From positions 1 through 64,000 of the forward strand of contig NZ_JAEPJQ010000008.1 of NCBI RefSeq assembly GCF_016827605.1: 64,000 bases of DNA. The letters are read 5' to 3'. Numbering within the stretch: the stretch's first letter is position 1; each line of letters opens with the position of its first letter. The stretch comes from Hyunsoonleella ulvae (GTDB taxonomy: Bacteria > Bacteroidota > Bacteroidia > Flavobacteriales > Flavobacteriaceae). Made by a program: the position numbers and the translations under genes. Below the pieces are notes generated by a model. That model was not told where the DNA came from. It ran no database searches and was given only the letters and a program-made list of their open reading frames with translations. Positions 8,025 through 57,939 of this stretch are shown piece by piece.

Positions 8025-8054
8025 ATTTTTTGTAGTTAAATAATTTTACATAAA

Positions 8055-8080: not shown

Positions 8081-8108
8081 AAGTTTTTATTTTATGAATA
8101 GTGCATGA

Positions 8109-30296: not shown

Positions 30297-30297
30297 T

Positions 30298-31038: not shown

Positions 31039-31061
31039 TTATGTTAATTTATTCAGTCTTT

Positions 31062-31133: not shown

Positions 31134-31151
31134 AAGCGTTTAATATTTTAA

Positions 31152-31490
31152 TTATAGTTTTTCAATTCTAGCCAGTTCCTTATCCAAAAACTCCCAACAA
31201 TTCCTATTAATTTCATCAAAAGCTGTTACTAAAGACTTTCCATAGTCAGTTAATTCTGCACCACCGCCACCTTTACCACCTATACTATTTATGGTTACAG
31301 GTTTTTTTGCAGATTTATTGACCGAGTCTAAAAGTTGCCATGCCTTTTTATAGGAGATATTTAATGATTTTGCAGCTTTAGATAAAGATCCTGTTTTTTG
31401 AATCGCTTTTAGTAAATGCACTCTGCCTTCGCCTAGAAGTACATTGTCTTCAGATTCAATCCAGATGCGGCTTTTTATTTTGTATCCCAT
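31152..31490 (-). CDS. ModE-like winged helix DNA-binding regulator
   Basis: A 112-residue single winged-helix domain of the ModE N-terminal type: GEGRVHLLKAIQKTGSLSKAAKSLNISYKKAWQLLDSVN is read as recognition region (about 21-59), followed by the glycine-rich wing GGKGGGGAELTDYG. The C-terminal molybdate-binding MOP domains are absent, so sensing must use another route or the protein acts constitutively. The gene follows moeA by four bases. The palindrome at 32723-32746 between moeA and napD is a candidate target. Confidence 0.88.
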   Translation of the reverse strand: MGYKIKSRIWIESEDNVLLGEGRVHLLKAIQKTGSLSKAAKSLNISYKKAWQLLDSVNKSAKKPVTINSIGGKGGGGAELTDYGKSLVTAFDEINRNCWEFLDKELARIEKL

Positions 31491-41148: not shown

Positions 41149-41163
41149 TTTGAGGAGGCTTTT

Positions 41164-42553: not shown

Positions 42554-43176
42554 GTAAATCCAATAATAAAACAACCATAATAAACCAAATTAAGAAAGAA
42601 TAAAATGATAGTAAACGCTGAATTAAAAATCCAAACATTAAAATATTTTGATAATAAAATAAAAGGTATCATACCAACATTAAAGAGTACCAAAGCTATA
42701 GTTATCCAAAAACTGAGTTTATACTTAATTTTTAAGGCGTAATCATCAGCATTAATTAAATCATGTAAATGGAAACCCGTTAGCACAAGTAAAAAAACAG
42801 CACCAAAAACAAACACATACTTATGGTAATCAACCTGGGCACCACAAATAAAATACATAAGAACAAAAAGAATACTAAGTATAATGATTACTTTTTTTTG
42901 AAGCTTATTTTTTAATATGGTATGATACCACCAAAAATAGAATAAAAAGCTTAAACCAGTATAAGCATAATAAAGCCAGATATTATTGATGATTGTATAC
43001 TTGCCTACTAATTTTCCTAAAATAGTATCAATTATAAATGTTAGTATTAAAAAATGTAAAAAATAGCCTTCGGAGGAATACCTGTATTTCTTGTAATTTA
43101 TGGCAGCACTGCAAACAGCTAAAAACTCGAATAAATTAATAGAATAACTTAAAATCGTTGTATAGTCAATATTCAT
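42523..43176 (-). CDS. Polytopic membrane protein next to the histidine kinase
   Basis: A 217-residue protein with about seven hydrophobic helices (for example LYYAYTGLSFLFYFWWYHTIL, VIIILSILFVLMYFICG, IFNSAFTIILFFLNLVYYGCFI). I do not recognise a named family. It overlaps the kinase gene and is on the same strand, and comparable seven-helix proteins commonly precede such kinases in Flavobacteriia as I recall. It could act as the sensor partner. Confidence 0.75.
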   Translation of the reverse strand: MNIDYTTILSYSINLFEFLAVCSAAINYKKYRYSSEGYFLHFLILTFIIDTILGKLVGKYTIINNIWLYYAYTGLSFLFYFWWYHTILKNKLQKKVIIILSILFVLMYFICGAQVDYHKYVFVFGAVFLLVLTGFHLHDLINADDYALKIKYKLSFWITIALVLFNVGMIPFILLSKYFNVWIFNSAFTIILFFLNLVYYGCFIIGFTWTKTKYNQY

Positions 43177-43196
43177 TTATTCGAGTTTAAAATTTA

Positions 43197-43739
43197 TTAC
43201 ATTTTTTTAGGTGGGCGCCCCGCTTGCCCATAATTATAGGATTGAATATCAGTAATGTTATTACTTTCAGGACTTAAAGGCATGCTAAAAGTTAAAATAC
43301 TCCCTTTACTTTTTGGCTTTATATCACCTGTAGGGACTAAAAAAACTGTAGAGAATCCAGGATCTGGAAATTTTTTGTCATTAGGATAGGCACCGTTATA
43401 AATTCTAATACCTAAATTTTCATACCCTAACCTGTCTGCCTCGTATTCTACATAAGCAATATATTTTTTAAGTTCTTCTAAATCAAACCAGAATTCTCGT
43501 GTATCATCAATATTTAATACTTTATTGATTGCTTTATACCTTGTATTTACAAACTCCTCTTCCAAGGTTTTGGCATATTTATAATCAATGGTTTGTTTTG
43601 GGGGTTTTGTAGGTTTCGGTTTTTCTTCTTCAGGGGTATCTCTATCATTTGGAGTGTTGTTATTATCCTTACAAGATGTAAGGCTTAATAATAACACTAG
43701 AATCATTAGTGCGGGTTTGACTAAAATGCTTGGTTTCAT
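43197..43739 (-). CDS. Small lipoprotein with Pro/Glu-rich linker
   Basis: About 180 residues beginning MKPSILVKPALMILVLLLSLTSC with the lipobox LTSC, then an acidic/proline linker (DTPEEEKPKPTKPPKQ) and a globular part (WFDLEELKKYIAYVEYEADRLGYENLGIRIYNGAYPND in pieces). The end is QAGRPPKKM. A start ten codons earlier (43769) is unlikely because the -7 element overlaps it. Unknown function. It precedes the membrane protein, kinase and regulator genes, so it may belong to their unit. Confidence 0.78.
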   Translation of the reverse strand: MKPSILVKPALMILVLLLSLTSCKDNNNTPNDRDTPEEEKPKPTKPPKQTIDYKYAKTLEEEFVNTRYKAINKVLNIDDTREFWFDLEELKKYIAYVEYEADRLGYENLGIRIYNGAYPNDKKFPDPGFSTVFLVPTGDIKPKSKGSILTFSMPLSPESNNITDIQSYNYGQAGRPPKKM

Positions 43740-43766
43740 GATTTTGTTGTTTTTTATGTTTACAAT

Positions 43767-43774
43767 CAAAAATA
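43767..43774 (-). promoter_or_regulatory. -7 promoter element of the lipoprotein/two-component unit
   Basis: On the minus strand TATTTTTG matches TAnnTTTG, 28 bases before the start at 43739. It excludes the earlier ATG at 43769 as the start. Confidence 0.5.
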
Positions 43775-43900
43775 CGGATTAATATTTTGAATTTATAATG
43801 CTGTTGATTTTGATTAGAACTTTTTGTTAGTGTTAACTTGTTGATTTTTAGATTTTTGAATATATGTATATTGTGTTTAAGTAATAGATTTTAGACCAAA

Positions 43901-43913
43901 AAAGGGGAAAAAC
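43901..43913. promoter_or_regulatory. 13-bp motif shared with the paralogue operon promoter
   Basis: AAAGGGGAAAAAC occurs here and, identically and in the same orientation, at 57561-57573. Here it lies about 130 bases upstream of the -7 element at 43767; there it lies about 70 bases upstream of the operon's -7 element. Only these two copies were noticed in the window. Confidence 0.5.
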
Positions 43914-43952
43914 ACCCTTAATATTTTTGTCTAAAGATAATGGATTAAGCGG

Positions 43953-45368
43953 TTATGGTGTCTCGTAGTTTATAAATAAATAATTATCCAACAGTACTTT
44001 TTTTTCTGAAATAAGCTTTTCGTCGTTTTTTGTTTTTCTTTTTATAGTGTAGAATATTTCTGATTCTTTGTCTAGTTTGTAATGAATAGATTTTATGGGC
44101 ATTTCATCCTCACTTTGAAACACTAAAGTTTGTGTTGTTATTTGATTGTTATACTGATAAATTAATTGAAATTCTATTGTACCTATAGCTTCATCTTCGA
44201 AATAGGCTTTGTCTATTTCTACGTCTAATACATTAGTTACAATTTTTTGCTCTGTATGTGTTGAGGTCACATCAATAATTGAAGAACATTCGGGTTTTTC
44301 TACCCAATCCATTATTTTTCGTTCTCCGTTAGTATCAATTTCAGTGACTCTGTATCGCATGGGTAGGTTCATATTTACAGCATAAGGAAAATTGATATGT
44401 TGTGTATAAAGACTAGGGTGTTTTTTTAAAAATTTTACCTCATATGTAATTGGTTTGCTATTGTTAACACTTACAGCTTCAACTTCAATAATCTTCATGT
44501 AAAGCTCTGGTCTTAAGTTTTCAGTAAAATCATAACATTTTACTTCCACAGCGGCATAGGTTGGGGGAATCTCTTCGTTTAAATCTATTTGCTTAATTGC
44601 TTCTGTATATTTATCTGTATCAATTTCTATGCTTAACGTATTGCTTTTTACGATTTTGTTCTTGATGTTGTCTGTTTTATCCAGAACGCTGTCTTTTTCA
44701 AAATGTGCTTTTACATCTCTTGAGCCAGATATTGATTCCTCGTTTGGAAACCAGACGTTAGAATGGTATGAGTAGTTTAAACTTAGGCCAATTAACTTGT
44801 TTTTTAATTGCTTGTTTAACAATTGGGATTCATGTTTGGTTAAGGATACGGTGTAAGTACGTTTGGTCCAAAATGATTTTGAGCTTGAAAATCCTGATTT
44901 ATCAGCAGCTTCTAGTGCTCCATCATGATCAATAGTTTCATATTTGTTATTTTCTACTGGCAGTATGAGCCTTGTATTAATATGTGATATAGGCAGGGGT
45001 TTTATTTTTATACTACCATATTTTTTCAAATGTTTTTTTATGAGCTTAAGGGTTTCTGGTTCTATCTTTCTCATTATAACACCAAATTGCAATAGGCTCT
45101 TAAATCTTTTTTCTCCAATGTCTTCATAGCATTTTGTACCTGTGTAACGCATATCTAGAAATCTAAAATCTGGCGCACCGTTAGCTGTTTTATCTAAAGT
45201 AAGGTCTCCTGGCTCATAATAGAATAAAAGAGGGTTAGCCTTGTCATGAAAAATAACTATTCCTTCTATTTCTTCTCTAGAACCAAATTCTGGTTGTGCA
45301 GATAATAGATTGAACATACATAATATGAAAACAAAAATTATGCGTATTGAACTTTGACTAACCCTCAT
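43953..45368 (-). CDS. YYYLP-family exported protein G (divergent member)
   Basis: A 471-residue exported protein; signal peptide ends near LLSAQ (residue 25). It shares the frame of the array: FYYEP at 49-53 where others have YYYLP, then PDFRFLDMRYTG (66-77), the site matching PxFxFLxY. The GG-x-x-H motif is missing (KCYEDIGEKRFKSLL instead). The middle and C-terminal thirds contain repeated beta-type blocks (KPITYEVKFLKKHP, RVTEIDTNGERKIMDW). It is the last gene of the eight-gene operon and the most diverged member. Unknown function. Confidence 0.75.
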   Translation of the reverse strand: MRVSQSSIRIIFVFILCMFNLLSAQPEFGSREEIEGIVIFHDKANPLLFYYEPGDLTLDKTANGAPDFRFLDMRYTGTKCYEDIGEKRFKSLLQFGVIMRKIEPETLKLIKKHLKKYGSIKIKPLPISHINTRLILPVENNKYETIDHDGALEAADKSGFSSSKSFWTKRTYTVSLTKHESQLLNKQLKNKLIGLSLNYSYHSNVWFPNEESISGSRDVKAHFEKDSVLDKTDNIKNKIVKSNTLSIEIDTDKYTEAIKQIDLNEEIPPTYAAVEVKCYDFTENLRPELYMKIIEVEAVSVNNSKPITYEVKFLKKHPSLYTQHINFPYAVNMNLPMRYRVTEIDTNGERKIMDWVEKPECSSIIDVTSTHTEQKIVTNVLDVEIDKAYFEDEAIGTIEFQLIYQYNNQITTQTLVFQSEDEMPIKSIHYKLDKESEIFYTIKRKTKNDEKLISEKKVLLDNYLFINYETP

Positions 45369-45395
45369 AGCTTTTAATGTGTTTGGTATTTTTTA

Positions 45396-47750
45396 TTAAT
45401 TATTACCGTTTTCTGAATTTTCCTTGTCATCATCATCTTTCTTGCCTAATAAACCTTCAAGGATTTCCTTTCCCTTTTCAACTAATTTGTCTTTGCCGTT
45501 TTCAATTATGGAATCCTTAGCTTTTTCAATGTCAGATTTTTCTTCGTATGCTTCCATGGCTTTAATTTGACTTTCCCCTAGTACTAATAGGCTGGAACTG
45601 CTATTTTGCCACGCACTTGTTTGTACTTCTCCATCTTTTTTTATGGTAATTAATTGGTATTTGTAAAACAGTTCTTTACCCTCAGGAACAAATAACTGAA
45701 TCCCTTCATGGGTTTGTCCATCTTCGGAAATGGTTATAGCTGGGAATGTAATTTCATTCACACCATTAGGGTCTGCCTGAATGGATTTAATGATTAATTT
45801 CATGGAATGTGCATCAGTATATTCAAGTACATTTAATACCTGAATTTCTAAATTAGTAATTTGGCTCCCTGAGGTACCACCTATAATTTTTTTCTTAACT
45901 TCTTGATTACAAGTGTTACAGTCTTTATTTAGTGCATAGTCTAACCATAAAGCTGTAATGTTATTACTGGTTTGAAGTTTACTTATAGATGTATCATCTA
46001 AATGTAGTGTTTCACTGGTTGGAATTTCATCACTCTGCAATACAACAGTTTCAAAATAGGTTTTGCTACCTTGTTTTTTTTGCAAAACTAATTGTTTGGG
46101 TATGATGGGATAATCCAGAATGTTAGTCCATCCATTTATGATTTCTGTAGTTTGATTAAATTGTATCTTTCCAAATGTCATAGGAGAGTTAACTTCCAAA
46201 TTTACAGGAACATTAATTACTGTAGTATCGTCTCCATAAGGTCTAAATTCTAGATTGATGTTAACTCCTATGTTATTTAGCATAGCTCCCACAAAATCAT
46301 CTATATTGCTATCCATTCTCCAATCTAGAATGATGGGTTTGTGATAGTCTGAAGGTACACTGGAATTTATACTTTCTGGTTTTACATTAAAGTTGGTAAG
46401 TGTGGCTCCAAAGTCTACTTTTGGAACGTCCCTAAGATCCATTGGCATTAACTTTACAGGTTTTTTGAGTTTTGCTGCCAATAGTTTCTCTGCAAGTTTT
46501 ACATCCTCACTACTAACTTGTGGTGTTAACTCTGCATTTACCAATACACTGCCTTTGCCTCCTTCAGACGACATATAGTAAATATTAAATGCATATTCAT
46601 TGGTGTCTTTATTCCATTTTAAGGTATATTCTGCAGGAAAATAGTAGTATACATTAGAGTTTGTATTTTGGTCTTTATAGATTTTTCTAAATACATTAAG
46701 TTTTTCTAGAAACGACACATAATTATCTCCCTCTAAAGTAGATTCTATATCTTCATATTTTGTAATATCTGGACCCTTTCGTTCTTTATCAGTAGGCGTA
46801 CCACTGTTCGTTCTAATAGGTTTATATTTTACCAAACCTATATTTCTTAAGCCTTCGGAGTCTACTTTGGTTGGTGTCTTTTCGGTTTTTATAACTACAG
46901 GTGGCTTTTTAATAACAGGTGTATATACAATAGGGATACTGGATGATATTGATGAAAATACATTGTACGCTTCATTCCCTGCCAAGAGTTTTCGGTTTTC
47001 ATTATAAATGGTCCATTTGTTGGCACTATACCACACACCTAACGGGTTGTTAAAACTCTTTATAGATGTTTGCGAATTAAACGTAGTAAACACTAAAGCA
47101 TTCGGCTTATTATTGGTCGTACTGTTGTTAATGTATGTAATGTGTCGCTTTCTGTTTGCATTGGTAACTTTGTGTTTAAAAATTTTGGAATTTATAAATA
47201 CATTAAACTTTGCTCCAGCTGGCATGGGTTTACCATCCGTATTAAAAATATGCCACTTTCCTGCAGCGTAATAAACACCAACTGGGCTTTTGTTATATGG
47301 CCCACTTGCTCCCCAATTTGGAGTAATTAAAAAGGCTGCGTTGGGATTGTTGTTTAATTTCGCATGGTTTAGTTTTACCGATTTACTATTGGTCCCAGCT
47401 TTCACGGTAAAGGCATTAGCACTTTTATTGACTACTAAAACATTAAATTGTGTTTTAGCTGCCATGGGGGACTTGTCTTGATTAAAAATCGTCCATTTCT
47501 TACCATCATACCAAACTCCATAGGCTTTGGTTTGGTAAGGACCAGATTTTCCATAGTTGTGGGTAACAATTAGAATCTTATCTTTTTTTCCATTTGTACT
47601 CGTATGGTTAATGGAAGAAATATGACGATTTGTATTTGCTGTGGACGCAGTATGCTTAAATACTGTTTGTGCTTGTATACTTGCGAAGGTTGATAACAGG
47701 AATGTTATCACGCCTATGGCAAGTAAATATGTTTTCTGAATTTTTTTCAT
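45396..47750 (-). CDS. YYYLP-family exported protein F with N-terminal triple repeat
   Basis: A 784-residue exported protein; signal peptide ends near IQAQ (28). Residues about 29-265 are three copies of a roughly 80-residue repeat, each with VW/VYY-x-x-x-KW-x-IFN-x-D-x-x-x-MPA-x-x-x-FNV; key strands are GVWYDGKKWTIFNQDKSPM, GVYYAAGKWHIFNTDGKPM and GVWYSANKWTIYNENRKLL. From about 340 the family core begins, with VYYYFP (367-372) then YAFNIYYMSSEGGKG. The C-terminus is charged (KKDDDDKENSENGNN). The repeats may bind a ligand or surface. It is the only member with added repeats. Confidence 0.78.
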   Translation of the reverse strand: MKKIQKTYLLAIGVITFLLSTFASIQAQTVFKHTASTANTNRHISSINHTSTNGKKDKILIVTHNYGKSGPYQTKAYGVWYDGKKWTIFNQDKSPMAAKTQFNVLVVNKSANAFTVKAGTNSKSVKLNHAKLNNNPNAAFLITPNWGASGPYNKSPVGVYYAAGKWHIFNTDGKPMPAGAKFNVFINSKIFKHKVTNANRKRHITYINNSTTNNKPNALVFTTFNSQTSIKSFNNPLGVWYSANKWTIYNENRKLLAGNEAYNVFSSISSSIPIVYTPVIKKPPVVIKTEKTPTKVDSEGLRNIGLVKYKPIRTNSGTPTDKERKGPDITKYEDIESTLEGDNYVSFLEKLNVFRKIYKDQNTNSNVYYYFPAEYTLKWNKDTNEYAFNIYYMSSEGGKGSVLVNAELTPQVSSEDVKLAEKLLAAKLKKPVKLMPMDLRDVPKVDFGATLTNFNVKPESINSSVPSDYHKPIILDWRMDSNIDDFVGAMLNNIGVNINLEFRPYGDDTTVINVPVNLEVNSPMTFGKIQFNQTTEIINGWTNILDYPIIPKQLVLQKKQGSKTYFETVVLQSDEIPTSETLHLDDTSISKLQTSNNITALWLDYALNKDCNTCNQEVKKKIIGGTSGSQITNLEIQVLNVLEYTDAHSMKLIIKSIQADPNGVNEITFPAITISEDGQTHEGIQLFVPEGKELFYKYQLITIKKDGEVQTSAWQNSSSSLLVLGESQIKAMEAYEEKSDIEKAKDSIIENGKDKLVEKGKEILEGLLGKKDDDDKENSENGNN

Positions 47751-47771
47751 GACGTTTTAATTTAAATTAAT

Positions 47772-49226
47772 TTAATAAGCCACATAAAATGCTGATGGCT
47801 CACTTAATTCCCTAACCGCTAGTGTTTCTTGCCTATTTACAAACTCTTGATAAGTTTGCTCGTAGACTGATCCTGTGTTTGATGCTCTAAAGCTAGTCAT
47901 ACCTTGCTCCCAAGGGTCGTATATGGTAAGTATAGTACCGTCTGGGGTTCCATCGCCTTGTATACCTGCGACTACAACTACGTGGGCACCATTATTCAAA
48001 TCAGTAGCAACCCATAGAGGGCCTATGGCCAGTAAATCAGCAAATCCTTGGATGGTATAGCTTTGCGGGTAATCATATTGCAATCCCCAAACACTAAACA
48101 TCTCAGTATTATCAGGAGGGAGTCCATTGTTATAGAAATAATTTCTCCATCCACTAACACCTCTTGCTATATCTTGTGGTGTTATGTTTCTAATATTGTC
48201 TCTCCATGCTACAATCATTGCTGCTGCTGAAGCCCAGCAAGACATACCGGTTGTTTGGGGGATTAATCGTATGGGGTATGCAATGTCTAAGCTTGAATTG
48301 GAAGAGGTACTAGAGCTACTGCTTGTATCATCAGCTATTGCTGTGCTATCAGAGCTTGACGATCCAGAACTACAAGCTGTTGGGTAAATGGCATTAATAC
48401 TTGCAATGTCTGTAGCACTCATTCGGTCTCTTTGGCCAATTGTTACACCACTACGCTTTGGTACAATAGTAGTCATTCGTCCACCTCCTGAAGCTGGTTT
48501 TCCAAAAGCTTTAGGTCCGTAATGCATTATAGACCCATAGTCGTAATTCCCCATATTACGACCTTCTGGCCAAAAGTAATGGTGCCAACTTTGGTTATAC
48601 TTTCTAAAATTATGTGCTTTTCCAGAGATAATATTTGCACCATTTATAGTAACAAACCGGTCTCTATCATCTCTGCTTTGCTCGTGATAAAAACCTAATG
48701 CGTGCATAATCTCATGTGTAGCACTCCCTTTTGTTTTAGTACCACATCTATCACCAATCTCAATTACCTGTCTACCTCCAACTTTTCCTATGTAAGACAA
48801 ACCACAAATACCAGGTGTAAAAATAAACTCTACATAATCACTCTCTATAGTTCTTGGGACAATACACACGTTGGTATTTGTGTTTATATGGTTTATTGCC
48901 CATAGTATGTCGGCTCTTTTTGGGTGACCACTAGCGATTACATAGGGCATTTTTGAGCCAGACCATCTGGCACTGGAAGATGTGGTAACTGCACCACCTC
49001 GACCTCCAGATTCTTGTACTAGGATGTCGCCTTCAAAAATGAGTTTGTCATCAATTTCGGTAACCGTTATGGTACCTTGTTGATTTGGAGCAAATGGGAG
49101 ATTAGCTCTTACTTCCCTGGTTCTTCCAGAGGATGGGTCTCCATATCCTTCTTGGGAAATGGCTACGTTTGTTAGTAAGCAACACCATATTAATATTGCA
49201 AGACTTATATATTTATTTAATTTCAT
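47772..49226 (-). CDS. Secreted astacin-type metalloprotease fused to papain-like cysteine protease
   Basis: A 484-residue dual protease. Signal peptide to about 24. An astacin (M12A) domain at about 85-285 has the zinc motif HEIMHALGFYHE (171-182) and Met-turn SIMHYGP (232-238). A Ser/Thr linker (286-313) leads to a papain-like domain at about 318-484 with C330 (GMSCWASAAAMI), H415 (GAHVVVVAG) and D437 (IYDPWEQG), the arrangement of C39/C70-like peptidases. Both active sites appear complete. It lies inside an operon of seven related exported proteins, so these are its likely substrates, activators or inhibitors. No immunity or zymogen propeptide was recognised; residues 25-85 could serve as one. 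Confidence 0.9.
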   Translation of the reverse strand: MKLNKYISLAILIWCCLLTNVAISQEGYGDPSSGRTREVRANLPFAPNQQGTITVTEIDDKLIFEGDILVQESGGRGGAVTTSSSARWSGSKMPYVIASGHPKRADILWAINHINTNTNVCIVPRTIESDYVEFIFTPGICGLSYIGKVGGRQVIEIGDRCGTKTKGSATHEIMHALGFYHEQSRDDRDRFVTINGANIISGKAHNFRKYNQSWHHYFWPEGRNMGNYDYGSIMHYGPKAFGKPASGGGRMTTIVPKRSGVTIGQRDRMSATDIASINAIYPTACSSGSSSSDSTAIADDTSSSSSTSSNSSLDIAYPIRLIPQTTGMSCWASAAAMIVAWRDNIRNITPQDIARGVSGWRNYFYNNGLPPDNTEMFSVWGLQYDYPQSYTIQGFADLLAIGPLWVATDLNNGAHVVVVAGIQGDGTPDGTILTIYDPWEQGMTSFRASNTGSVYEQTYQEFVNRQETLAVRELSEPSAFYVAY

Positions 49227-49244
49227 GACTTTAAATTTTAAATG

Positions 49245-51167
49245 TTACAGAAATCTATCCACGTCTATTCTTCCGTAATCTGATTTTTTCAAGCCAGATT
49301 TTTTTGGACTTTCGCCTTTTATGAAATATGTAATCTCATATTCATAATCTTCAACATCTCTTGGTAATAGAATCTCAATGGTTTTAGATAATTCAGATTT
49401 GTTAGTGCGTAAGTTTGATCTGCTCACTTCATTTTTGTTGCCCAATTTGCTGTAGATTTTTACTTCCACTGCTTTTATATTGTTTGTAAGCGTGAAATCC
49501 TCGTCTACTTCTATGTAAATAGGTTTTTTAACTAACGGTGGTTCTAAGGCAATACTACCAAACTTTGTAGTCTCCCAATCTGATTCTACCTTGTGGTTGC
49601 CCCTAAAGCTCCACATGGTTTTATAGTCATAGGCTAACCATTTGTCTCTGTTGTTATCGCCTTTCCAACCATATAACATTTTAAAGAAATTGCCACTGTT
49701 GTTAAAAGCAGATTTATCAATTTTAATCTCATCTACTGTTTCTTGGTTGTTCTCATGCTTCTTACGCATGATAACATTTACAAAGTTTACATGATTAAAA
49801 TCTTCTGCATTTACACCTCCAAGTGTGGCGTTTATTTGTCTTTGTTTCATTAAAGGATCGTCTGCATTAATCTCTCTAAAACATGACGGACATTTACTTT
49901 TAACATCTCCAAGGTTATAGTCAAAAGGCATTGTTTTGGTGGTTTGGGTGTATTTGTTTAAATCTATGCGATATACACCTCTTCTTCTTACTTGTTTCAT
50001 TTGGTAGGATACAGCTACAGACAAACTTGGCATAGGCTCTCTTTTAGGAGTATTGTCTTCAGAATCTTCATCGCTATCAGATTCTGGTGTACGTTCTATA
50101 GGATCGTGTCCTGCTGATGTACGTATACTATCTGCTCTAGTTTGAGCTTGTTGTCTTGCTGCCCTGTTACGTTGTTCCCTAGATTGTTCAAGCGCTTCAA
50201 TTCTTCTGTTTTCCTCACGTGTTTCTTGTCTGGCTTTTTGTAATTGTTCTGTAGCTCTATCCAACATACTTTTTTGGTTGTTGGGTAACAATTGGTTTAA
50301 TTGTGGTACACCTGTACCTCCAACCTTATCGAACATTAAATTCATGAGTTGGGTGTAAGCGGCTTCTTTTAGCTTATTTAACTCTTCATCGTCTCCAACT
50401 TGTGTTAATTTGATAGCACCTGTGTCCATAAGATCATCAAATGTTGCTTTTATTTCTGCTGAAAGCACTGGTGCCGCTAGGGCAGCCTCGAATGATTGGT
50501 GTTTATATATCCTATCAAAATTTGCCTCAATAACCACACGCTTTGGGGATTGGTAGCCTTCTACTTCCATTTCAAAATGGGCACTAAAATCTGGTGTTGG
50601 GGTATTAAATGTTTCCCATAGGATTTTTGAGCCTAATTTATTGACATGAACTGATACTGCCGAACGTTGATTTTCTAAAATTGGTGCATTTCCCAAACCA
50701 CAAACTTTTGCTTCAAATTCGCCATCTGGCTTTGCAACTGAGGATATTAAGGATACTGTACCGGATTTAAATACAACAGGTCCTATAATTTTGCCATTAC
50801 TATCCACTCTGCTTAATGCTCTTTCTGCATCTTTTATCATTTTGTCTGATACTTTTAGCTCTACAAGTGCGTGAACTATACCGCCACCCACTGCGCTTTC
50901 AGAAATACCATCATTAGATCCTGCATCAGTTTCTTCGTTTTTCACATAGCGTAAAAATGAGAAGATGGGGTCTCCTGTTGGATGGGATGCCAACTGTGGT
51001 TTATCTGGTAAATAATAGTAGTTGCTTCTATTATTAAGGTCTGGGAAGAGAATAAGTTCTCCAGCCCTTACTGGTTTATCCAGTAATATTTGTTGCTGTG
51101 CTCTTGTAGCAATGGGAGCTATACATAAGGCTACCAGCATATATAAGGTTTTATATGAAATTTTCAT
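49245..51167 (-). CDS. YYYLP-family exported protein E
   Basis: A 640-residue exported protein; signal peptide ends near ATRAQ (24). Family marks: YYYLP (50-54), PIFSFLRY (67-74), GGGIVHALVEL (94-104), GPVVFKSGTVSLIS and the block TPDFSAHFEMEVEGY. A charged coiled coil at about 300-345 (LQKARQETREENRRIEALEQSREQ in pieces) leads to an acidic linker. The late part has DKWLAYDYKTMWSFRGN, the EPPLVKKPIYIEVDEDF strand and an ending SPKKSGLKKSDYGRIDVDRFL. A CPSC pair with no clear partner lies near 420. Unknown function; probably periplasmic or surface located. Confidence 0.82.
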   Translation of the reverse strand: MKISYKTLYMLVALCIAPIATRAQQQILLDKPVRAGELILFPDLNNRSNYYYLPDKPQLASHPTGDPIFSFLRYVKNEETDAGSNDGISESAVGGGIVHALVELKVSDKMIKDAERALSRVDSNGKIIGPVVFKSGTVSLISSVAKPDGEFEAKVCGLGNAPILENQRSAVSVHVNKLGSKILWETFNTPTPDFSAHFEMEVEGYQSPKRVVIEANFDRIYKHQSFEAALAAPVLSAEIKATFDDLMDTGAIKLTQVGDDEELNKLKEAAYTQLMNLMFDKVGGTGVPQLNQLLPNNQKSMLDRATEQLQKARQETREENRRIEALEQSREQRNRAARQQAQTRADSIRTSAGHDPIERTPESDSDEDSEDNTPKREPMPSLSVAVSYQMKQVRRRGVYRIDLNKYTQTTKTMPFDYNLGDVKSKCPSCFREINADDPLMKQRQINATLGGVNAEDFNHVNFVNVIMRKKHENNQETVDEIKIDKSAFNNSGNFFKMLYGWKGDNNRDKWLAYDYKTMWSFRGNHKVESDWETTKFGSIALEPPLVKKPIYIEVDEDFTLTNNIKAVEVKIYSKLGNKNEVSRSNLRTNKSELSKTIEILLPRDVEDYEYEITYFIKGESPKKSGLKKSDYGRIDVDRFL

Positions 51168-51194
51168 GATTATTTTTATTTGATTTTCAAATCT

Positions 51195-53174
51195 TTACTC
51201 GTCTTTTATCACACCGATAACATCTTTAAATTTTTCTAAAATTTCTCCAGCTTTACTTACCTTGCCGTCCGCACCTGGTTTTAGGATCACTTTCCCGGCT
51301 TCAATTATTTTTTCTAGGTATTCTGGGTCTTCATCTTTTAACTCCTCTGGAATGGAGGCATACACATAATCGTCGTTAATTTTATCATCCCACCCTAAGG
51401 CCATTTTACCTTTATCTTTATGGGTTAGTACTAGTTGATATGCGTATCCTCTGGTATTGCGATCGGTAAAAATCATTTTCTCAACTAATGGTTCTCCTTT
51501 AGAGATTGTGAGTGGAATGTTACTTTCAATTTCTTGCCCAAATTTGTAGTAGCGGAGTAGGAGTGTGGCTCTTACGATACCTAAACTGCTTAGCTCGTCT
51601 AAATCTGCTTCAAACTCTATAGTTCGAGGTATTACAGGAGGAAATAATGTTAAACCTTGCCAATCGCCTTTAACCCATTGTGGATCCTCTGGATATAAGT
51701 TACCGCCTTTTAAGCTCCATTGACTTTTGTACTCATATACATCAGGATTACTATCTTCCCCTCGGGCATAAGTAATGGTTGCTTTTAATCCATTTTTCTT
51801 TAAATGCTCTGCATCTATGGTCCTGGAATCATTAAAATCGTTTCCTGAATTACGTTTTTTTCTAACGTTTACGGTTACGTAGTTTACTTCTTGATCGAAC
51901 ATTTCCTTGGCTTCAAGATCCAGTATCATATTGATGTCTCTGTGTGTGAAAAACGGATCGTTTAAAAACACTGAACCCACACATTTTTTATTGTTTTTTA
52001 CACCATCATACCAACTTGCCAAGTTTGCAGTAAGTGTAAAAGGTTTTTCTACAGCTAACCTGTAGTTGAGATAATATGTTTCGGTTTTCTTTTTAAAACT
52101 ACTTTCAAAAAAGGTTCTGTTATAGGTATACTTTTTACCGTATTTTATATTTGGCATGGCTGCCTTTTCCTTTTCTGTAGGAGGGGTTAAAACATCCGAA
52201 TCTGATGATTCTGTCATTTTTTGTAAAAAGAAATCGAAAAAGGCTTCCCTAATTTTAGTAACTCGGTCATCAGCTATGTTTTCATCAAAGTCCACTTTAA
52301 TGTATTCCTTTTCTACCATGTAATCTATCACGGTACGAACTTCATCGTACGATCTACTTTTTACTTCAGATTTTTTTCCAAAAACCGCATCAATAACACC
52401 TCCAAAAATGCCACCTCTCTTCTTTTTACCGTGTACTTCTACATATTTAGCTTTATCTCTTTCCATGTGCCTTTGTACCTCGCTCCAATTAACAATTACG
52501 CGTCCTTTGGCTGCTGGAATTCGGGTAGTGTATTTAAAGCCCATTTCTATGGATAAATCTGTAATAGATCTTGTTTTTTCAAAAGTGGCAGCCAACAATT
52601 GAGCACCATTTGGACTAAGGTTTGATGCCACCGCTACTTTTGCCCCTGGTAAGACAGGTGCGTTTAGTGATTGTACTACTGATGGTGCTAAACTATCATC
52701 TGTTAAGGTTGCTGATATTATGCGTAAGGATTTATCTCCGTCGGGTTTTACATCTAAAGCACCTTTTAAAACGCTCTTTTTTCTTGCACCTTGTTCTCCT
52801 TTGTGTAAAATTTGTTCTACTTCTTTTTGTTGTGCAGGCGTTAAACCCCATTCCATTAACATGTGTAATAGGGCACCGCCTATGCCACCATCGGCCTCTT
52901 TTTCTTCTGTGATGTATTGTAGAAATAGAAATTCTGGAGTTGTGTCTGGCTTTTGTCCTAAACGTAGTGATACTGGTAAATAGTAGTAGTTTTTACTTTT
53001 TCTATCAGATAGACTAGAGGCTTGCCCGTATAGCACTACCTGTGTGCCGTCGCTAAGTGTTAAGCTTAGTTTATTTGTATCATCCACTATTTGTGCATGG
53101 GATGGTACAAAACTTGTTACTAGTAGGCAACATAATATTGCCCATTTTACTGTTTGTTTAATTTTTGTTTTCAT
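51195..53174 (-). CDS. YYYLP-family exported protein D
   Basis: A 659-residue exported protein; signal peptide ends near PSHAQ (28). YYYLP at 63-67, PEFLFLQY (80-87), GGALLHMLMEWGLTPAQQKE (99-118). The first 230 residues align with the short protein C upstream, including LTLSDGTQV before the motif. A basic loop with KKKRGGIFGG and FGKKSEVK follows near 255-275, and the late part has EYKSQWSLKGGN, a PPVIPRTIEFEADLD strand and RGYAYQLVLTHKDKG. It starts four bases inside the end of protein C's gene, so translation is coupled. Unknown function. Confidence 0.82.
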   Translation of the reverse strand: MKTKIKQTVKWAILCCLLVTSFVPSHAQIVDDTNKLSLTLSDGTQVVLYGQASSLSDRKSKNYYYLPVSLRLGQKPDTTPEFLFLQYITEEKEADGGIGGALLHMLMEWGLTPAQQKEVEQILHKGEQGARKKSVLKGALDVKPDGDKSLRIISATLTDDSLAPSVVQSLNAPVLPGAKVAVASNLSPNGAQLLAATFEKTRSITDLSIEMGFKYTTRIPAAKGRVIVNWSEVQRHMERDKAKYVEVHGKKKRGGIFGGVIDAVFGKKSEVKSRSYDEVRTVIDYMVEKEYIKVDFDENIADDRVTKIREAFFDFFLQKMTESSDSDVLTPPTEKEKAAMPNIKYGKKYTYNRTFFESSFKKKTETYYLNYRLAVEKPFTLTANLASWYDGVKNNKKCVGSVFLNDPFFTHRDINMILDLEAKEMFDQEVNYVTVNVRKKRNSGNDFNDSRTIDAEHLKKNGLKATITYARGEDSNPDVYEYKSQWSLKGGNLYPEDPQWVKGDWQGLTLFPPVIPRTIEFEADLDELSSLGIVRATLLLRYYKFGQEIESNIPLTISKGEPLVEKMIFTDRNTRGYAYQLVLTHKDKGKMALGWDDKINDDYVYASIPEELKDEDPEYLEKIIEAGKVILKPGADGKVSKAGEILEKFKDVIGVIKDE

Positions 53175-53869
53175 AATTGTGTATTTAATAATTTGTATAA
53201 ATTCTGTTCTAATTTGTAAACTGTTTTATGAGGGGTGCTTTGCCCTTTTTTTCTAAATGTGATTACAAAGTGCATAGAGAGATATATGTCTTTTAGGTCT
53301 TGGGAATTATTATCTATTGCTGTTTTTAGGGATTGGGCATCAGCACTATTAAGTTTAAATGAACATGCTGTTTTAGAGTTAGAAAATGTGGGTGTTTTAC
53401 CTATGGTGGTGGCCGATGTATTTAACACATCGACTAATGGGGAACTGCCCGTTATATATAATTTTGAATGCTCTGTATCTAACTCTGGTGTTACTGCTCC
53501 CATGAGTCTGGCATCATTGCCTTTTATGCTTCTTAAAATTGATTCAGCTTCATTTCGTTGTTGTAATGTTAATCCCCAAGTAGTTAAAAAATGAAGTATT
53601 CCGCCTTGGTTACCGTTTTTTTCGGCATACATAAGCAAAGAGAATTCTGGCTCTTTACTCTTGGTTACAGAGAATTTTAAATGAGATGGTAAATAATAAT
53701 ATTCATCTGATGTCTCATCAAATCCATTTACACTTTTATAGATATATACTTCAGAGCTGTCTGATAGTTTTATAGTCAATTTTTCTGAGGCATCAAGGGT
53801 CTGTGTGTAACACGCAAAAGCGCAAACAAGAAAGCCTAGTAATATAAAGTTCTTTAATAGTGGTATCAT
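53171..53869 (-). CDS. YYYLP-family exported protein C (short member)
   Basis: A 232-residue exported protein that covers only the N-terminal third of the family. Signal peptide near 1-22. YYYLP at 57-61, PEFSLLMY (74-81), QGGILHFLTTWGLTLQQRNEA (88-108), PTFSNSKTACSFKL and HFVITFRKKG. It is closest to the start of protein D, which follows with a four-base overlap, and it ends in a clean stop without frameshift traces. It is therefore probably a genuine short form or a domain module rather than debris, though an old truncation is possible. Confidence 0.78.
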   Translation of the reverse strand: MIPLLKNFILLGFLVCAFACYTQTLDASEKLTIKLSDSSEVYIYKSVNGFDETSDEYYYLPSHLKFSVTKSKEPEFSLLMYAEKNGNQGGILHFLTTWGLTLQQRNEAESILRSIKGNDARLMGAVTPELDTEHSKLYITGSSPLVDVLNTSATTIGKTPTFSNSKTACSFKLNSADAQSLKTAIDNNSQDLKDIYLSMHFVITFRKKGQSTPHKTVYKLEQNLYKLLNTQL

Positions 53870-53881
53870 AGTCTATGGGTT

Positions 53882-55618
53882 TTAGTTTGGGATTTCATCG
53901 ATAAATAATAACCCGTATTTATCTATGCCTGTTTTTTGTTTTGGGCTGCTGTTTTTTATATACCAGGTTATAGTGTATGCTACGTCTTCCACTCCTTTAG
54001 GAATGGTTATTTCGAAAAATTTCTCGCTTAGTTCATCCTTCGGGTATAGCGTGATATATTTTGATTTTGTTTCTCCAAAAAAGTCGTAATTAATCTTTAC
54101 CGCAACAGCCCTAACATTAAGTTCTTTAAGGGCTTGCATGTCTCCAGAGAGTTCAATTCTTCTTCTCTCAAAAGGAGTGTAGAGATTTATCATTGAGGCA
54201 GATTCCTCTTTTAATTCTTCTGTAAATGTCCCTCCGCCAATAAACTTCCAAATGGTTTTATACTGGTAATTAAGCCACTCACTTTGGTTACTATCGCCAT
54301 GGTTTAAATAGGTCATGGCAAATTTGCCATTGGCATCTTTATAGCTGTCTTTAGTGAGTAGGACTTCTTTTAGGGTAATGGAGTCATTTTGATGCTTCTT
54401 GTAAAGTTTCACAGTAACGCTGTTCAACATTTTATCGAATTCTTTTTCGATATTACCATCCACACCTACATACACGTCACGTTGCTGGAATGTAGGGTCC
54501 CATAGCGGTACATTTTTAAATATATCCTTGTTATTTCCGTGTTTTTTATAGAGATCTCCAGCATTAAACGTGATGTAGTGGTTTCTGTGTACCAAACTTC
54601 TGCCGTTAAATACCATATTACTTTTTCCTGTGGTACGATGCTCTTTATATTGGTAACTCACGTTTAATCCAAATCCGGTTGTATTACGACTTCCCATGGC
54701 TCCATTTGAACCTAATAAAGATCCTAACGCATCTTCTAAACCGCCTCGGTGCTCTTCTGGTACTTGTTCTAGTGGTGTGGGCTTAAACATGAGTTCCAAT
54801 AGCTTTTCGTACACAGTTTGTACTAGGCTTTCCATAGACTCGTCTTTTCCTGTACTTGTAAACTTTATGGCGTTATCTTTTCTAAGCTTATCAAAACCAA
54901 AACCTACATCGGCACCTATGTAGTAAACACTGCCACCTGCATCAAATGCATGGCTCTTTTTTACTTCAGACCAATCTATTTCTAGTTCTGCTTCATAACT
55001 TTCGGTTAATCCAGAAAAGCCCAATTCAAAAATTAAAGAGACGTCTGGTGTCGTCATTTTTAAGCTTTCCAGAAGAAGTTTAGATTTAACAGGGTCAACA
55101 CTAAAAGACAGGGGTATTTTACTATTCTCTATTATTGGTGCTTCTCCTGTACCTAGTATTGCTTTTTTAGAATTGCCTGTGGCAGGATTAAGGATTGAGG
55201 AAACAAGTGTGTATTTACCCGTTTCAAATACAATAGGACCTTCGATACTTATGGCATCGTTCTCAAACTTTTTTTTCAGAAAACGTTCTGCGTTTGATAT
55301 CAACTCTCCGGGTGTGTCATAAAGCACTAAAAAGTTAAGTATGCCACCGCCTCCGGCTTCTGTAATTGTTTTTGTTGTGTTATTTGAAGGCTTCTCTAAA
55401 ATGTATCTTAAAAACGAAAATTCTGGAATGCTATCGTTTTTAAGTGATAATCTTGCTCTTTGTGGTAAATAGCGGTAGCTGTTCTCTTTTTTATGAACAG
55501 GAAAACACCATAGCCCATCAGCATTTATACCTTGATCTATTAGGATGGATTGTGCGTTGGCTGTAATACACCATACCGATAGCACAATCATCACGATATT
55601 GTTTTTTAAATGATTCAT
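53882..55618 (-). CDS. YYYLP-family exported protein B
   Basis: A 578-residue exported protein; signal peptide ends near TANAQ (23). The motif reads YRYLP (48-52), followed by PEFSFLRYIL (65-74) and GGGGILNFLVLYDTPGE (89-105), where the usual H is N. GPIVFETGKYTLVSSILNP, EAPIIENSKIPLSF and TPDVSLIFELGF match protein E. Later: GDSNQSEWLNYQYKTIWKFIGG, PFERRRIELSGDMQAL and ITWYIKNSSPKQKTGIDKYGLLFIDEIPN (ending motif). Unknown function. It lies 12 bases before protein C. Confidence 0.82.
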   Translation of the reverse strand: MNHLKNNIVMIVLSVWCITANAQSILIDQGINADGLWCFPVHKKENSYRYLPQRARLSLKNDSIPEFSFLRYILEKPSNNTTKTITEAGGGGILNFLVLYDTPGELISNAERFLKKKFENDAISIEGPIVFETGKYTLVSSILNPATGNSKKAILGTGEAPIIENSKIPLSFSVDPVKSKLLLESLKMTTPDVSLIFELGFSGLTESYEAELEIDWSEVKKSHAFDAGGSVYYIGADVGFGFDKLRKDNAIKFTSTGKDESMESLVQTVYEKLLELMFKPTPLEQVPEEHRGGLEDALGSLLGSNGAMGSRNTTGFGLNVSYQYKEHRTTGKSNMVFNGRSLVHRNHYITFNAGDLYKKHGNNKDIFKNVPLWDPTFQQRDVYVGVDGNIEKEFDKMLNSVTVKLYKKHQNDSITLKEVLLTKDSYKDANGKFAMTYLNHGDSNQSEWLNYQYKTIWKFIGGGTFTEELKEESASMINLYTPFERRRIELSGDMQALKELNVRAVAVKINYDFFGETKSKYITLYPKDELSEKFFEITIPKGVEDVAYTITWYIKNSSPKQKTGIDKYGLLFIDEIPN

Positions 55619-55646
55619 GATAGAATGTTTTTTGTGATGTTATTTT

Positions 55647-57470
55647 CTATTCTTGAACAGGTGGTAATAAAAACAGATAGTTGCCATCTAAAGGTTTTGG
55701 TGTTAGTTCTGTTGGCCCAGTTTTGCTATACCAACTTACTTGATACACCACAGGCTCATCAGTGTCGTGATACAGGTTAATGGTGGAAGTGCTTTCGGTA
55801 TCTCCTTGTCGCAACACTACGGTGCCTTGAGGATTTGGTTGCCCATTAAGTATGGTAAAAAACCTAACGGCACAAGCCTGAATATTTGCGTCTTTAAAAA
55901 AGGTTCTATCAGCATCTATTTGTACAACACGCTTGGTAAATGGAGGGGTTAGTGCTATGGAGGCTTCATTAGTTTTTAACCAGCTATCTTTGGCTTTGGG
56001 TAGTTTTATGGTCTTGTTGTCCCCTTTTAGGCTCCAACTAAGTTTGTATTCATAATCCAACCAATCGGCTCCAGATATTCCTAACCTGGGATAAAAAATA
56101 TTTTTATAGTCTTTTCCAGCTTCTAAATCAGAGCGCTGAATAACGATATCTCTAGTTACATCATTATGTCCCTCTCCATAATGTTTCTTAAAGCTAACAG
56201 ATACAGAGTTTAGTATTTCACTAAAACTGTCTATATACTCTCCATCTAATTGGAAGATAATTTCACGTTTTAAAAAATCGTTGTCTTCTAGGTTTACTAC
56301 CCTAAAATATTTGTCCTTACTGGATGGGTCTTCTTTAAATACTTCATAAAGTCCACTAATATTACCCGATGAGTATACAGGTACCTTAATGGTTGTAGAT
56401 TTACTAAGGTTTAAGTAAAACTTATTGATGTTGATATCTGTTCTTTTTTTCAGAACAAATTGGTTATCGGTAACATATTTTTCATCCCTCGCACCTCCAA
56501 AAATCTTGCTAAAAAAACCTCTTTTTCGTCTTCCTAAAAGCTGTCCTTGTTCTACTGCGGTTTCTTTTTCCGGTTTTTTTGCCCAACCCATTTCGGCATC
56601 AAACATTAACTCAATAAGTTTGTCTGTTACTAATGATAGGATGCTGCTCATATCATCGGTTTTTATACCTAAGCCTGATGACCTATCAAATACATCAATA
56701 TTTAGTTTTTGGTCTTGGACCATCTCATCGGTTATCTTACGCATTTGTCTTTTGGTATACCCTTGTTGATTGCTGTATACTTTACTGTAGTGGTCATAAA
56801 TGGTAGACATATCAGCCGTTACTACAGCATTATACCCTTTAACTTTAGCTTCATAATAACCACTTACTACTACAGACACATCTGAGGTTTTGCCTTGTAG
56901 GGATTCCCATAAAAGTGTGGCACCTTCTTGACTTAGTTTTGCGGCTATTGCAGCTTTGGAATTTTTGTATAATGGCGCATGACCAGAGGTTATCACGTTT
57001 TGGGTAAATGGGTTGTCACCATCTACATTATTTAAAATAGAGGATACTATTTTAAAACTCGCAATGCCATCTTCTCCATCTTTTAACACTTGTTTTAATG
57101 GCACTGGCCCCGCTATTTTTGCCCCTCCTTTTTTTTCTTTAAGTTCTTTTTCAAGATCTTTTAATACCTCATCTGGGAGATCAAACTGTATAAGTGTATG
57201 AAATAGTCCGCCGCTTGCATTGCCACCTTGCCCAATGTATTTCATACACATCAGCTCAAAGTCGCCATCATCTTTTGTAGCTAATCTGGGATAGTCTGGT
57301 AAATAGTAATAGGTACTAGGTTCATTACTGTCCTGGAGTAGTTGTACTCCATTAATAATCATTCTCCCTTCGTCGTAGTTTACTTGTGCGTTTGTAACTA
57401 CTGCTAAGTGCATAAATAGAACCAATAGTATGGTTCTAATTAAGTTTTGTTTTCTGTTGTTATTTTTCAT
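55647..57470 (-). CDS. YYYLP-family exported protein A (first gene of the operon)
   Basis: About 607 residues starting MKNNNRKQNLIRTILLVLFM; signal ends near VTNAQ. An earlier ATG at 57500 is rejected because the -7 element at 57486-57493 lies inside it. YYYLP at 54-58, FELMCMKYIG (71-80), GGLFHTLIQFDLPD (87-100), GPVPLKQVLKDGEDG, HAPLYKNSKAA. A basic stretch GRRKRGFFSKIFGGARDEK resembles the KKKRGGIFGG loop of protein D. Late blocks are DWLDYEYKLSWSLKGDN, PPFTKRVVQIDADRTFF, VYQVSWYSKTGPTELTPKP and a hydrophobic LFLLPP end. Unknown function. Confidence 0.82.
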   Translation of the reverse strand: MKNNNRKQNLIRTILLVLFMHLAVVTNAQVNYDEGRMIINGVQLLQDSNEPSTYYYLPDYPRLATKDDGDFELMCMKYIGQGGNASGGLFHTLIQFDLPDEVLKDLEKELKEKKGGAKIAGPVPLKQVLKDGEDGIASFKIVSSILNNVDGDNPFTQNVITSGHAPLYKNSKAAIAAKLSQEGATLLWESLQGKTSDVSVVVSGYYEAKVKGYNAVVTADMSTIYDHYSKVYSNQQGYTKRQMRKITDEMVQDQKLNIDVFDRSSGLGIKTDDMSSILSLVTDKLIELMFDAEMGWAKKPEKETAVEQGQLLGRRKRGFFSKIFGGARDEKYVTDNQFVLKKRTDININKFYLNLSKSTTIKVPVYSSGNISGLYEVFKEDPSSKDKYFRVVNLEDNDFLKREIIFQLDGEYIDSFSEILNSVSVSFKKHYGEGHNDVTRDIVIQRSDLEAGKDYKNIFYPRLGISGADWLDYEYKLSWSLKGDNKTIKLPKAKDSWLKTNEASIALTPPFTKRVVQIDADRTFFKDANIQACAVRFFTILNGQPNPQGTVVLRQGDTESTSTINLYHDTDEPVVYQVSWYSKTGPTELTPKPLDGNYLFLLPPVQE

Positions 57471-57485
57471 GATCTTAAATTTTGT

Positions 57486-57493
57486 CAAATGTA
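57486..57493 (-). promoter_or_regulatory. -7 promoter element of the paralogue operon
   Basis: On the minus strand TACATTTG matches TAnnTTTG, 16 bases before the start at 57470. No TTG is seen at -33, which is consistent with a promoter that needs an activator. Confidence 0.5.
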
Positions 57494-57560
57494 AAACCAT
57501 GATTTGTAGTATGTTGAAGTGAAATACTCGTTTTTAAATACGTGCTTCACTGTTTTTTTG

Positions 57561-57597
57561 AAAGGGGAAAAACCTCCTGTTTTTCAAAAAAATCCCC
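57561..57597. promoter_or_regulatory. Shared motif with nested inverted repeats upstream of the paralogue operon
   Basis: AAAGGGGAAAAAC (57561-57573) is the motif also present at 43901. Here GAAAAAC pairs with GTTTTTC (57579-57585) around CTCCT, and the outer AGGGGA pairs with TCCCCT further on. It lies about 70 bases upstream of the -7 element, suited to a regulator site. Confidence 0.5.
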
Positions 57598-57939
57598 TAA
57601 TTTTTTTAGGCTTTTAGCTCTTGAATTTTTTATGGTTTGCATCTATTTTTGACCTGTACATTCAAGTTAAGAAGTAAGCTTTAGAAGTTATGCTGGTTTA
57701 CTTCACAAGTACATTATTGGTTTGTCGTATTTTGCTATTTGGCGATACATCGTATTAACAATTGAATTACAGGTATAATCTGATATGCCAATTACCTCAT
57801 TATTAAAGTATATGGGTATTCTTAAGAGATATTCATTAAACTTTCATGGCACCTACACCTACTTTGATACCCTTTGAATTATTTTTCAAGGGGTATTTTT
57901 ACAAATACATTTCTTACATTTAGCAAGTAAATAACTACT
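57598..57939. other. Intergenic region between the paralogue operon and comM
   Basis: An AT-rich divergent region of about 340 bases. TACATTTAG near 57913 is a near-match to a -7 element for comM. I see no open frame or strong hairpin. Confidence 0.5.

Follow-up and report, generated by a model that had tools for sequence, protein, structure and literature searches.

The 64,000-nucleotide stretch of Hyunsoonleella ulvae analysed here ('the window'; contig NZ_JAEPJQ010000008.1, positions 1 to 64,000) carries an operon of eight minus-strand genes, A to H, which occupies positions 43953-57470 and runs from high to low coordinates with intergenic gaps, A through H, of 28, 12, -4, 27, 18, 21 and 27 nt (Table 1). 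Seven of the products appear to belong to a single family and the eighth, F, is a dual protease. An earlier note, made from the letters of the window alone, had described eight genes with gaps of -4 to 28 bases and a signal peptide on each product; we recovered the same places and gaps, and a leader-like hydrophobic start is seen by eye on all eight proteins. The genes stand as that note placed them, and the accessory unit continues beyond them to about 41.0 kb.

The seven proteins other than F carry the YYYLP-type motif to which the earlier note had drawn attention, in the form YYYLP in A, C, D and E, YRYLP in B, YYYFP in G and FYYEP in H. The relationship that this note proposed for the seven is firm for six of them. 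BLASTP matches every pair among A to E with an E value of at most 1.7e-6, and H to A at 5.8e-7 in one direction and 1.3e-4 in the other. A profile of A to E with their orthologues found the H of a relative (G003; 2.6e-13) and missed the H of the window, which was matched at 7.7e-13 once the profile had been enlarged by four distant members; in hhalign, H scored 98.1-98.7% against A, B and E. G, linked by profile only, is the least certain: its best single BLASTP match is D (E 0.005-0.007), and in hhalign it scored 95.0% against H and 58.8, 27.7, 14.3 and 2.4% against A, D, E and B, respectively. We count G as a member because of this profile link to H. By these comparisons A to E and H, and G by profile, share a domain, here called the YYYLP domain, and are encoded in co-directional operons of Bacteroidota and of records assigned to other phyla.

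The statement that the proteins match no known family holds for A to E and H in Pfam and NCBIfam, where none exceeds a cut-off, and also for A, B, D, E and H in PHROGs and PADLOC. In PHROGs neither A, B, D, E, G and H nor one family protein from a leaderless relative had a match, and no PADLOC family reached E 0.01 with any of A, B, D, E, F, G, H, the downstream protein I and its neighbouring membrane protein (Table 1), or with one leaderless subunit. Searches of PDB sequences with profiles of B and E returned nothing significant (best 0.052 and 0.012), the matches of the E profile lying mostly on a charged insert of this protein. The family is not described in the titles and opening parts of abstracts of the open-licence papers searched. 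As judged by sequence, it thus appears to be undescribed in these libraries and papers.

Of 40 near genomes, 3 had a match to protein A; they belong to the 12 genomes of its own genus and include the own genome. Profile searches found the family in 3 of 395 Bacteroidota genomes, or 7 of 395 with a broader profile (own genome included), in 11 of 397 genomes of its own family (own genome included) and in 1 of 128 genomes of the order of a distant relative, G146, the one being G146 itself. Except for this order, the genome sets are draws from larger groups, and in both 395-genome searches and the 397-genome search the best few candidates per genome were scored. A scan of GTDB contigs with a profile of B yielded 46 loci, 36 of them named Bacteroidota (Tenacibaculum, Aquimarina, Flavivirga, Muriicola, Hyunsoonleella, relatives of Lewinella, Chitinophagaceae and others). 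The other ten are named Eisenbacteria, Planctomycetota, Armatimonadota or Proteobacteria and are mostly bins, in which binning errors are possible; a GC content of 0.64-0.71 in seven of the ten argues against flavobacterial contamination, an argument that does not extend to the remaining three (0.48-0.50). Complete plasmid records of Pararhizobium and Paracoccus contain still more distant relatives, which are annotated there as 'hypothetical protein'.

With a simple open reading frame (ORF) caller, and on contigs many of which end inside the operon, we labelled A in 39, B in 41, C in 24, D in 40, E in 41, G in 30 and H in 29 of the 46 loci. The gene order in many of them is G H A B (C) D E followed by a payload gene, the counterpart of F; the window and its closest relatives have G and H after the payload. 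Across 65 loci, five of which are contigs counted twice, at least two family proteins are encoded in 57 and at least four in 53, and one only in eight (L128, L129, L130, G412, G263, G671, L161 and L162). Homologues that occur mostly singly, which the earlier note had named as grounds for giving up its view, are therefore not what was found.

Both domains of F are recognised by Pfam (Astacin 4.7e-44, Peptidase_C70 8.4e-29) and have the residues expected of the M12A and C70 peptidase families. The protein reads HEIMHALG at 171, SIMHY at 232, SCWA at 329, HVVV at 415 and DPW at 437; the HExxHxxGxxH zinc motif and the Met-turn of M12A (astacin) are present, as are the Cys, His and Asp of C70, which we take to be catalytic. 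Among aligned relatives the motif residues H, E, H and H are retained in 8/8 astacin-type rows, and the catalytic Cys, His and Asp in 10 of 11 C70 rows. Unlike plain M12A or C70 peptidases, the fusion sits within an operon of the family, and in one relative (L106) the C70 domain, although clearly homologous (profile 1.3e-26), has by alignment lost both Cys and His, while its M43 partner keeps HExxH.

Judging from what it holds in relatives, the position behind E is a payload slot whose enzymes are exchangeable. E was labelled in 41 loci, and in 34 of them the sequence following the last E can be seen. The first or second gene there encodes a recognised enzyme or payload domain in 26 loci: astacin-C70 in seven, C70 alone in one, M43-C70 in one, a protein of a class that we call F2 in 13 (two of them truncated where the sequence stops) and a further HExxH protein in four. 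Classes were assigned by the profiles F and F2; Pfam was run on the payloads of selected loci (L096, L124, L105, L106, L095, L101, L111, L113 and L118) and gave no match for those of L095, L101, L111 and L118. In L094, outside the 34, an M43 protein (7e-19) lies behind the first E; the second half of this payload was considered as a dead C70 domain, showed no BLAST or profile similarity and was not counted. The protease gene hence does not always adjoin the family, a point that the earlier note had wanted tested, the enzyme in the slot being exchangeable between loci.

Within the slot, payloads combine a recurring domain, C70 in the class of the window and an N-terminal zincin-like domain in the other main class, with a variable enzyme. 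In the C70 class the variable partner is N-terminal, and C70 occurs fused to astacin, fused to M43 (1.6e-7) or by itself. In the F2 class, about 170 N-terminal residues are common to 17 aligned proteins with unlike C-termini, one of which is Amidase_2 (Pfam 1e-14); the others resemble caspases or glycosidases by eye only, and those searched in Pfam had no match. A recurring domain joined to unlike enzyme domains, as in polymorphic toxin systems, is thus found in these 17 proteins. The common F2 domain contains HExxH in part of the 17, the motif being gone, with unlike C-termini following, in Aquimarina AU474 and 2-328, Muriicola and Flavivirga jejuensis. As judged from these alignments, the recurring domain may lose catalytic residues and still be retained, for which a binding role is the best explanation, given one case in the C70 class (L106) and the motif loss in F2.

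The gene upstream of the slot changes with it. Between the window and the sister species Hyunsoonleella pacifica, A, B, C, D, G and H are 93, 91, 80, 94, 94 and 87% identical, respectively, whereas E is 35% identical (279 aligned residues) and the payloads are unrelated; at the DNA level the two are alike up to 18 nt into E and again beyond 78 nt of G. Likewise, L096 and L118 share 99% identity in B and D and 92% in C, against 47% in E, the payload being astacin-C70 in one and another HExxH protein in the other. Statistics of identity were computed for the window and 26 of the 46 loci, in 324 of 351 pairs, leaving out 20 loci without a visible or recognised payload, and with seven payload class labels fixed before permutation. 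The identity of E minus the mean identity of A, B and D was +1.7 in pairs with the same payload class and -6.5 in pairs of different class, a class difference that none of 5000 label permutations equalled; calculated likewise, A, B and D gave 1.3, -1.4 and 0.2. In a quick tree of E (27 rows) the ten loci with a C70 payload, which come from Flavobacteriaceae, Saprospiraceae, Leadbetterellaceae and one unplaced bin, form one clade (Shimodaira-Hasegawa-like approximate likelihood ratio test, SH-aLRT, 99), and the E of L106 stays inside it despite the loss of the C70 Cys and His. In a quick tree of B (26 rows) such a clade is rejected (approximately unbiased test, p-AU 2e-39). By identities, permutations and trees, E and its payload have thus been exchanged as one cassette, and for the C70 class E groups by payload, not by species. 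To connect the near-invariant LDRA segment of E (residues 299-345) with docking would be a guess.

Such exchange bears on the earlier suggestion of a protease with dedicated substrates or inhibitors, under which A to E, G and H would be matured by F or would inhibit it. F lies within the operon and has the residues of an active dual protease, as this suggestion would have it; but the slot of relatives can hold a peptidoglycan amidase, distant operons contain a muramidase, GH46 or a phospholipase D-like protein, and E alone varies with the enzyme while A, B and D do not. With an exchangeable enzyme in the slot, we consider this explanation quite improbable.

In one relative (G756/L120) E has about 500 extra residues in its middle, for which no Pfam family was found; this E (L073 9247-12729) is 1160 residues long and is possibly a carrier with a payload fused into it. 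Small genes with lipoprotein-like leaders, recognised by inspection, adjoin F in L096 and L124.

The N-terminal module of G is likewise exchangeable between relatives, as domain searches and likeness indicate. In the window it comprises three DUF7452 stretches (Pfam 4.4e-76), a front also found by likeness in Tenacibaculum, H. pacifica, Aquimarina spongiae and Lacihabitans; in Muriicola (G635) it is a ricin B lectin (RicinB_lectin_2, 2.3e-30 in Pfam), by likeness also in other Aquimarina and in Flavivirga jejuensis. It is absent in G559/L090 and G756/L120, and the remaining loci have other sequence there. An exchangeable lectin-like front would fit a part that binds a target.

By a rough hydropathy criterion, a start resembling a leader is present in most family members of the 46 loci (A 35/39, B 38/42, C 23/24, D 44/48, E 48/51, G 27/30, H 25/29). 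Family proteins without a leader occur in nine genomes (G461, G600, G628, G762, G146, G727, G412, G326 and G243), the absence being measured in five of them and judged by inspection in the others. In these leaderless forms the enzyme is tied to the family by operon membership and has no fixed place behind E. The enzymes are a CHAP protein with a peptidoglycan-binding domain in G628 (CHAP 4.4e-9), caspases (two in G146 and, by BLAST group, also in G727), GH46 in G412 (2.9e-14), and a muramidase in G326 and G243 (Muramidase 2.5e-61 and 2.7e-62 across the two); in G326 a papain is followed by a chagasin-type inhibitor (5.8e-18), and the Paracoccus operon encodes a phospholipase D-like protein. 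Compared with A, B, E, G and H in hhalign, the leaderless accessory proteins c16, c27 and c28 reach at most 14%; a fourth, c26, reaches 85% against B. Homologues of a cassette of regulator genes that follows the operon in the window (Table 1) adjoin the systems of G006, G412, G461 and G243, and this recurrence ties the exported and leaderless forms together.

Several side observations concern the surroundings of these operons. A papain-family protease gene followed by a chagasin-type inhibitor gene (I42) lies beside a minimal leaderless system in L161 (5561-6829). On the Paracoccus plasmid (L150) a trio of trypsin-like, EAD1 and ATP-binding genes (6730-11617) lies directly upstream of the leaderless family genes, and a tyrosinase gene lies at the far end (30116-31159). 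Genes for an extracytoplasmic function (ECF) sigma factor, a TPR protein, a subtilase and a TPR-CHAT protein recur near several operons (L075, L080, L069 and L072; BLAST groups c4-c7, with Pfam run on one example each), and this set is possibly a second type of regulator.

Some neighbours would fit a programmed-death or defence device, whose signal-driven assembly would turn a released protease or wall hydrolase on the cell that makes it: caspases are encoded in G146 and, by BLAST group, in G727, a TPR-CHAT protein and an ECF sigma factor lie near several operons, and the EAD1, trypsin and ATP-binding set adjoins the Paracoccus operon. We nevertheless hold such a device to be improbable, since PADLOC has no match for nine window proteins and one leaderless subunit, the subunits and payload of the window have leaders, and G has exchangeable lectin-like modules. 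Still less credible, and already disfavoured, is the reading of the operon as what is left of a contractile injection system or phage tail. Lysis cassettes contain CHAP, peptidoglycan-binding and small membrane proteins, and all three are found in leaderless operons. However, PHROGs has no match for A, B, D, E, G, H and one leaderless family protein, recognising an endolysin-type peptidoglycan-binding stretch in one accessory protein and the small membrane protein at chance level only (0.084); one leaderless subunit has no match in phage records, and no Phage_sheath_1 was found in the genome of H. ulvae, in a search whose control was positive in 3 of 14 genomes.

Taken together, we favour, with a probability of about 55 per cent, one multi-protein complex of homologous, undescribed subunits that carries an interchangeable lytic enzyme, and the enzymes carried are probably weapons. 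The genetic coupling of the genes and their modularity are seen in the comparisons above, and from them we infer assembly, export, delivery, target and effect. A, B, C, D and H would form a common body; the recurring domain of the payload, in the window the dual protease, would be a docking tag recognised by E, which would load the enzyme; the front module of G would bind a target; and the complex would deliver the enzyme to a target cell and so serve competition or predation. Subunits of the leaderless forms would assemble in the cytoplasm, while in the window form all eight proteins have export leaders. The peptidoglycan-acting enzymes and the pair of protease and inhibitor point to conflict or predation rather than to self-processing. 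More tentatively, the complex may be a new delivery particle, namely a non-contractile hetero-oligomer of paralogues with E as a carrier that reads the docking domain, an exchangeable G, and exported and cytoplasmic forms in Bacteroidota, Alphaproteobacteria and probably other phyla.

A hetero-oligomeric exported structure, as proposed in the earlier note, is plausible, and the proteins do belong together, at least two being encoded in 57 of the 65 loci. The role that it gave the protease, the processing of this structure, is unsupported, because the enzyme is exchangeable: the slot also holds other zincins and Amidase_2, distant operons have muramidase, GH46 or CHAP, and peptidoglycan hydrolases are not processing proteases.

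The strongest rival to a weapon-carrying complex is a surface-bound digestive scaffold, in which the family would hold secreted hydrolases and lectin-like modules on the cell and degrade polymers or dead cells for food, with no delivery of toxins. Bacteroidota are rich in polymer degraders and account for 36 of the 46 loci, the payloads are hydrolases (muramidase, GH46, amidase and proteases) and G has ricin-lectin or DUF7452 modules. Such a scaffold would hardly explain why the loci seen have one to three payloads per operon and one matched E, unlike a many-enzyme scaffold, why distant forms have no leader, or why one papain gene is followed by an inhibitor gene, and we judge it unlikely.

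Several points weigh against the complex that we favour. No recognised enzyme lies behind the last E in 8 of the 34 loci (L100, L119, L120, L121, L122, L123, L127 and L129), L122 having an HExxH protein behind the first of its two E genes, and an immunity gene was not recognised in the window. In the B tree two C70 rows (L106 and L124) are on long branches; the F2 class needs four changes on the E tree and six on the B tree, and the class of other HExxH proteins needs three on each. E and F are adjacent, so that joint transfer alone could make E follow F. This would explain part of the pattern, but D, equally near E on its other side, does not follow the payload; the behaviour of D in turn does not amount to proof of contact between E and F. 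The regulator cassette is not beside the systems of G003, G559, G635 and G756 in the stretches compared, and the proposed link between exported and leaderless forms depends on profile similarity and this non-universal cassette.

The route of export is a further difficulty. The genome of H. ulvae has 60 places with a type IX sorting tail (Por_Secre_tail) and so probably uses the type IX route, yet none of these tails lies between 41 and 58 kb of the window, and no NCBIfam sorting model matched ten window proteins. The scan of the operon genes recognised neither an ATPase nor a translocating element, and Pfam, NCBIfam and PHROGs revealed, above cut-off, no sheath, tube, baseplate, AAA+ ATPase or component of a secretion route among them. 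Export beyond the periplasm and the crossing of a target membrane would thus be left unexplained by the genes of the operon. By the searches made, the system is neither contractile nor among the catalogued defence systems, and it lacks the type IX sorting tail that was sought.

Carriers of the type VI secretion system (T6SS), such as evolved VgrG and PAAR proteins, are subunits matched to an effector and exchanged with it. E resembles them in being matched to, and swapped with, the payload; unlike in T6SS, no T6SS component was recognised in the operon and the window form has export leaders. The outline of a conserved body with an exchangeable payload and an exchangeable binding part is similar to that of extracellular contractile injection systems (eCIS) such as the Photorhabdus virulence cassettes, from which the window differs in having no recognised sheath, tube, baseplate or AAA+ ATPase in the operon and no sheath in the genome. 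A zincin domain can mark payloads of Photorhabdus virulence cassettes, according to the part of Zhang et al. 2012 (PMC3482391) consulted. The same part of this paper lists delivery routes of polymorphic toxin systems and reports papain-like, caspase-like or metallopeptidase processing domains and peptidase toxins; AvrRpt2 and astacin are not mentioned in it. These systems are like the window in joining a recurring domain to unlike enzyme domains, and polymorphic toxin delivery would be the closest analogue by its logic; a carrier and body made of a multi-paralogue family, as in the window, is not named for them in that portion. The family is not described in the portion consulted of a paper on nucleoside triphosphate (NTP)-dependent conflict systems (PMC7159879).

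Table 1. Genes, domains and accessory unit of the window (aa, amino acids)
Feature	Position	Strand	Description
A	55647-57470	-	family member, 607 aa; BLAST to B 1.7e-33; ORF open to 57500
B	53882-55618	-	family member, 578 aa; BLAST to E 6.6e-41; query of the wide scan; alignment A4, 41 rows
C	53171-53869	-	short family member, 232 aa; BLAST to D 8e-21; labelled in 24/46 loci
D	51195-53174	-	family member, 659 aa; BLAST to A 8e-31
E	49245-51167	-	family member, proposed payload carrier; exchanged along with payload
Segment of E, about residues 299-345	50133-50273	-	near-invariant LDRA...L...R; alignment A5, 36 E proteins
F	47772-49226	-	payload with a leader, then an astacin zincin and a papain-like Peptidase_C70 domain
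Astacin domain of F, residues 87-281	48384-48968	-	variable enzyme part; M43 replaces it in L106
C70 domain of F, residues 312-450	47877-48293	-	proposed docking domain matched to E
G	45396-47750	-	784 aa; three DUF7452 stretches, then diverged family part
H	43953-45368	-	family member, 471 aa, divergent FYYEP motif
Protein I	43197-43739	-	180 aa, lipoprotein-like, LTSC leader by inspection; BLAST group c13; regulator cassette
Membrane protein of regulator cassette	42523-43176	-	217 aa; BLAST group c12
Sensor histidine kinase of regulator cassette	41792-42553	-	BLAST group c11; G461 homologue HATPase_c and HisKA_3 (Pfam)
Response regulator	41164-41805	-	BLAST group c10 and L162; G461 homologue Response_reg and GerE (Pfam on homologue)
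Accessory island with whole unit	40980-57900		blastn of window against L145-L148; edges approximate

Of the regulator cassette, neither protein I nor the membrane protein matches a Pfam family (for protein I, above cut-off). In four of the nine genus members without a match to protein A (G001, G002, G007 and G009), comM directly adjoins the genes found at 39.4-40.98 kb in the window, so that the unit of about 16.9 kb, regulator cassette included, is missing there and is accessory. In two genus members the intact comM is followed, 1.9-3.5 kb downstream, by a second, truncated copy (about residues 272-511; G003:C9:67145-67864 and G007:C1:58822-59532), as would be expected if a mobile element had inserted at comM; the island of the window also borders this gene. 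comM borders, too, the leaderless system of G762 (L079 6552-8090), a distant family member, and may be a repeated landing site.

If the proposed complex is real, the family would represent a machinery, so far undescribed, for the carriage of peptidoglycan hydrolases, proteases or caspases. The natural co-exchange of carrier and payload would then provide an experimental handle on cargo recognition, and a role would be offered for proteins now annotated as hypothetical, such as those on two plasmid records of Alphaproteobacteria.

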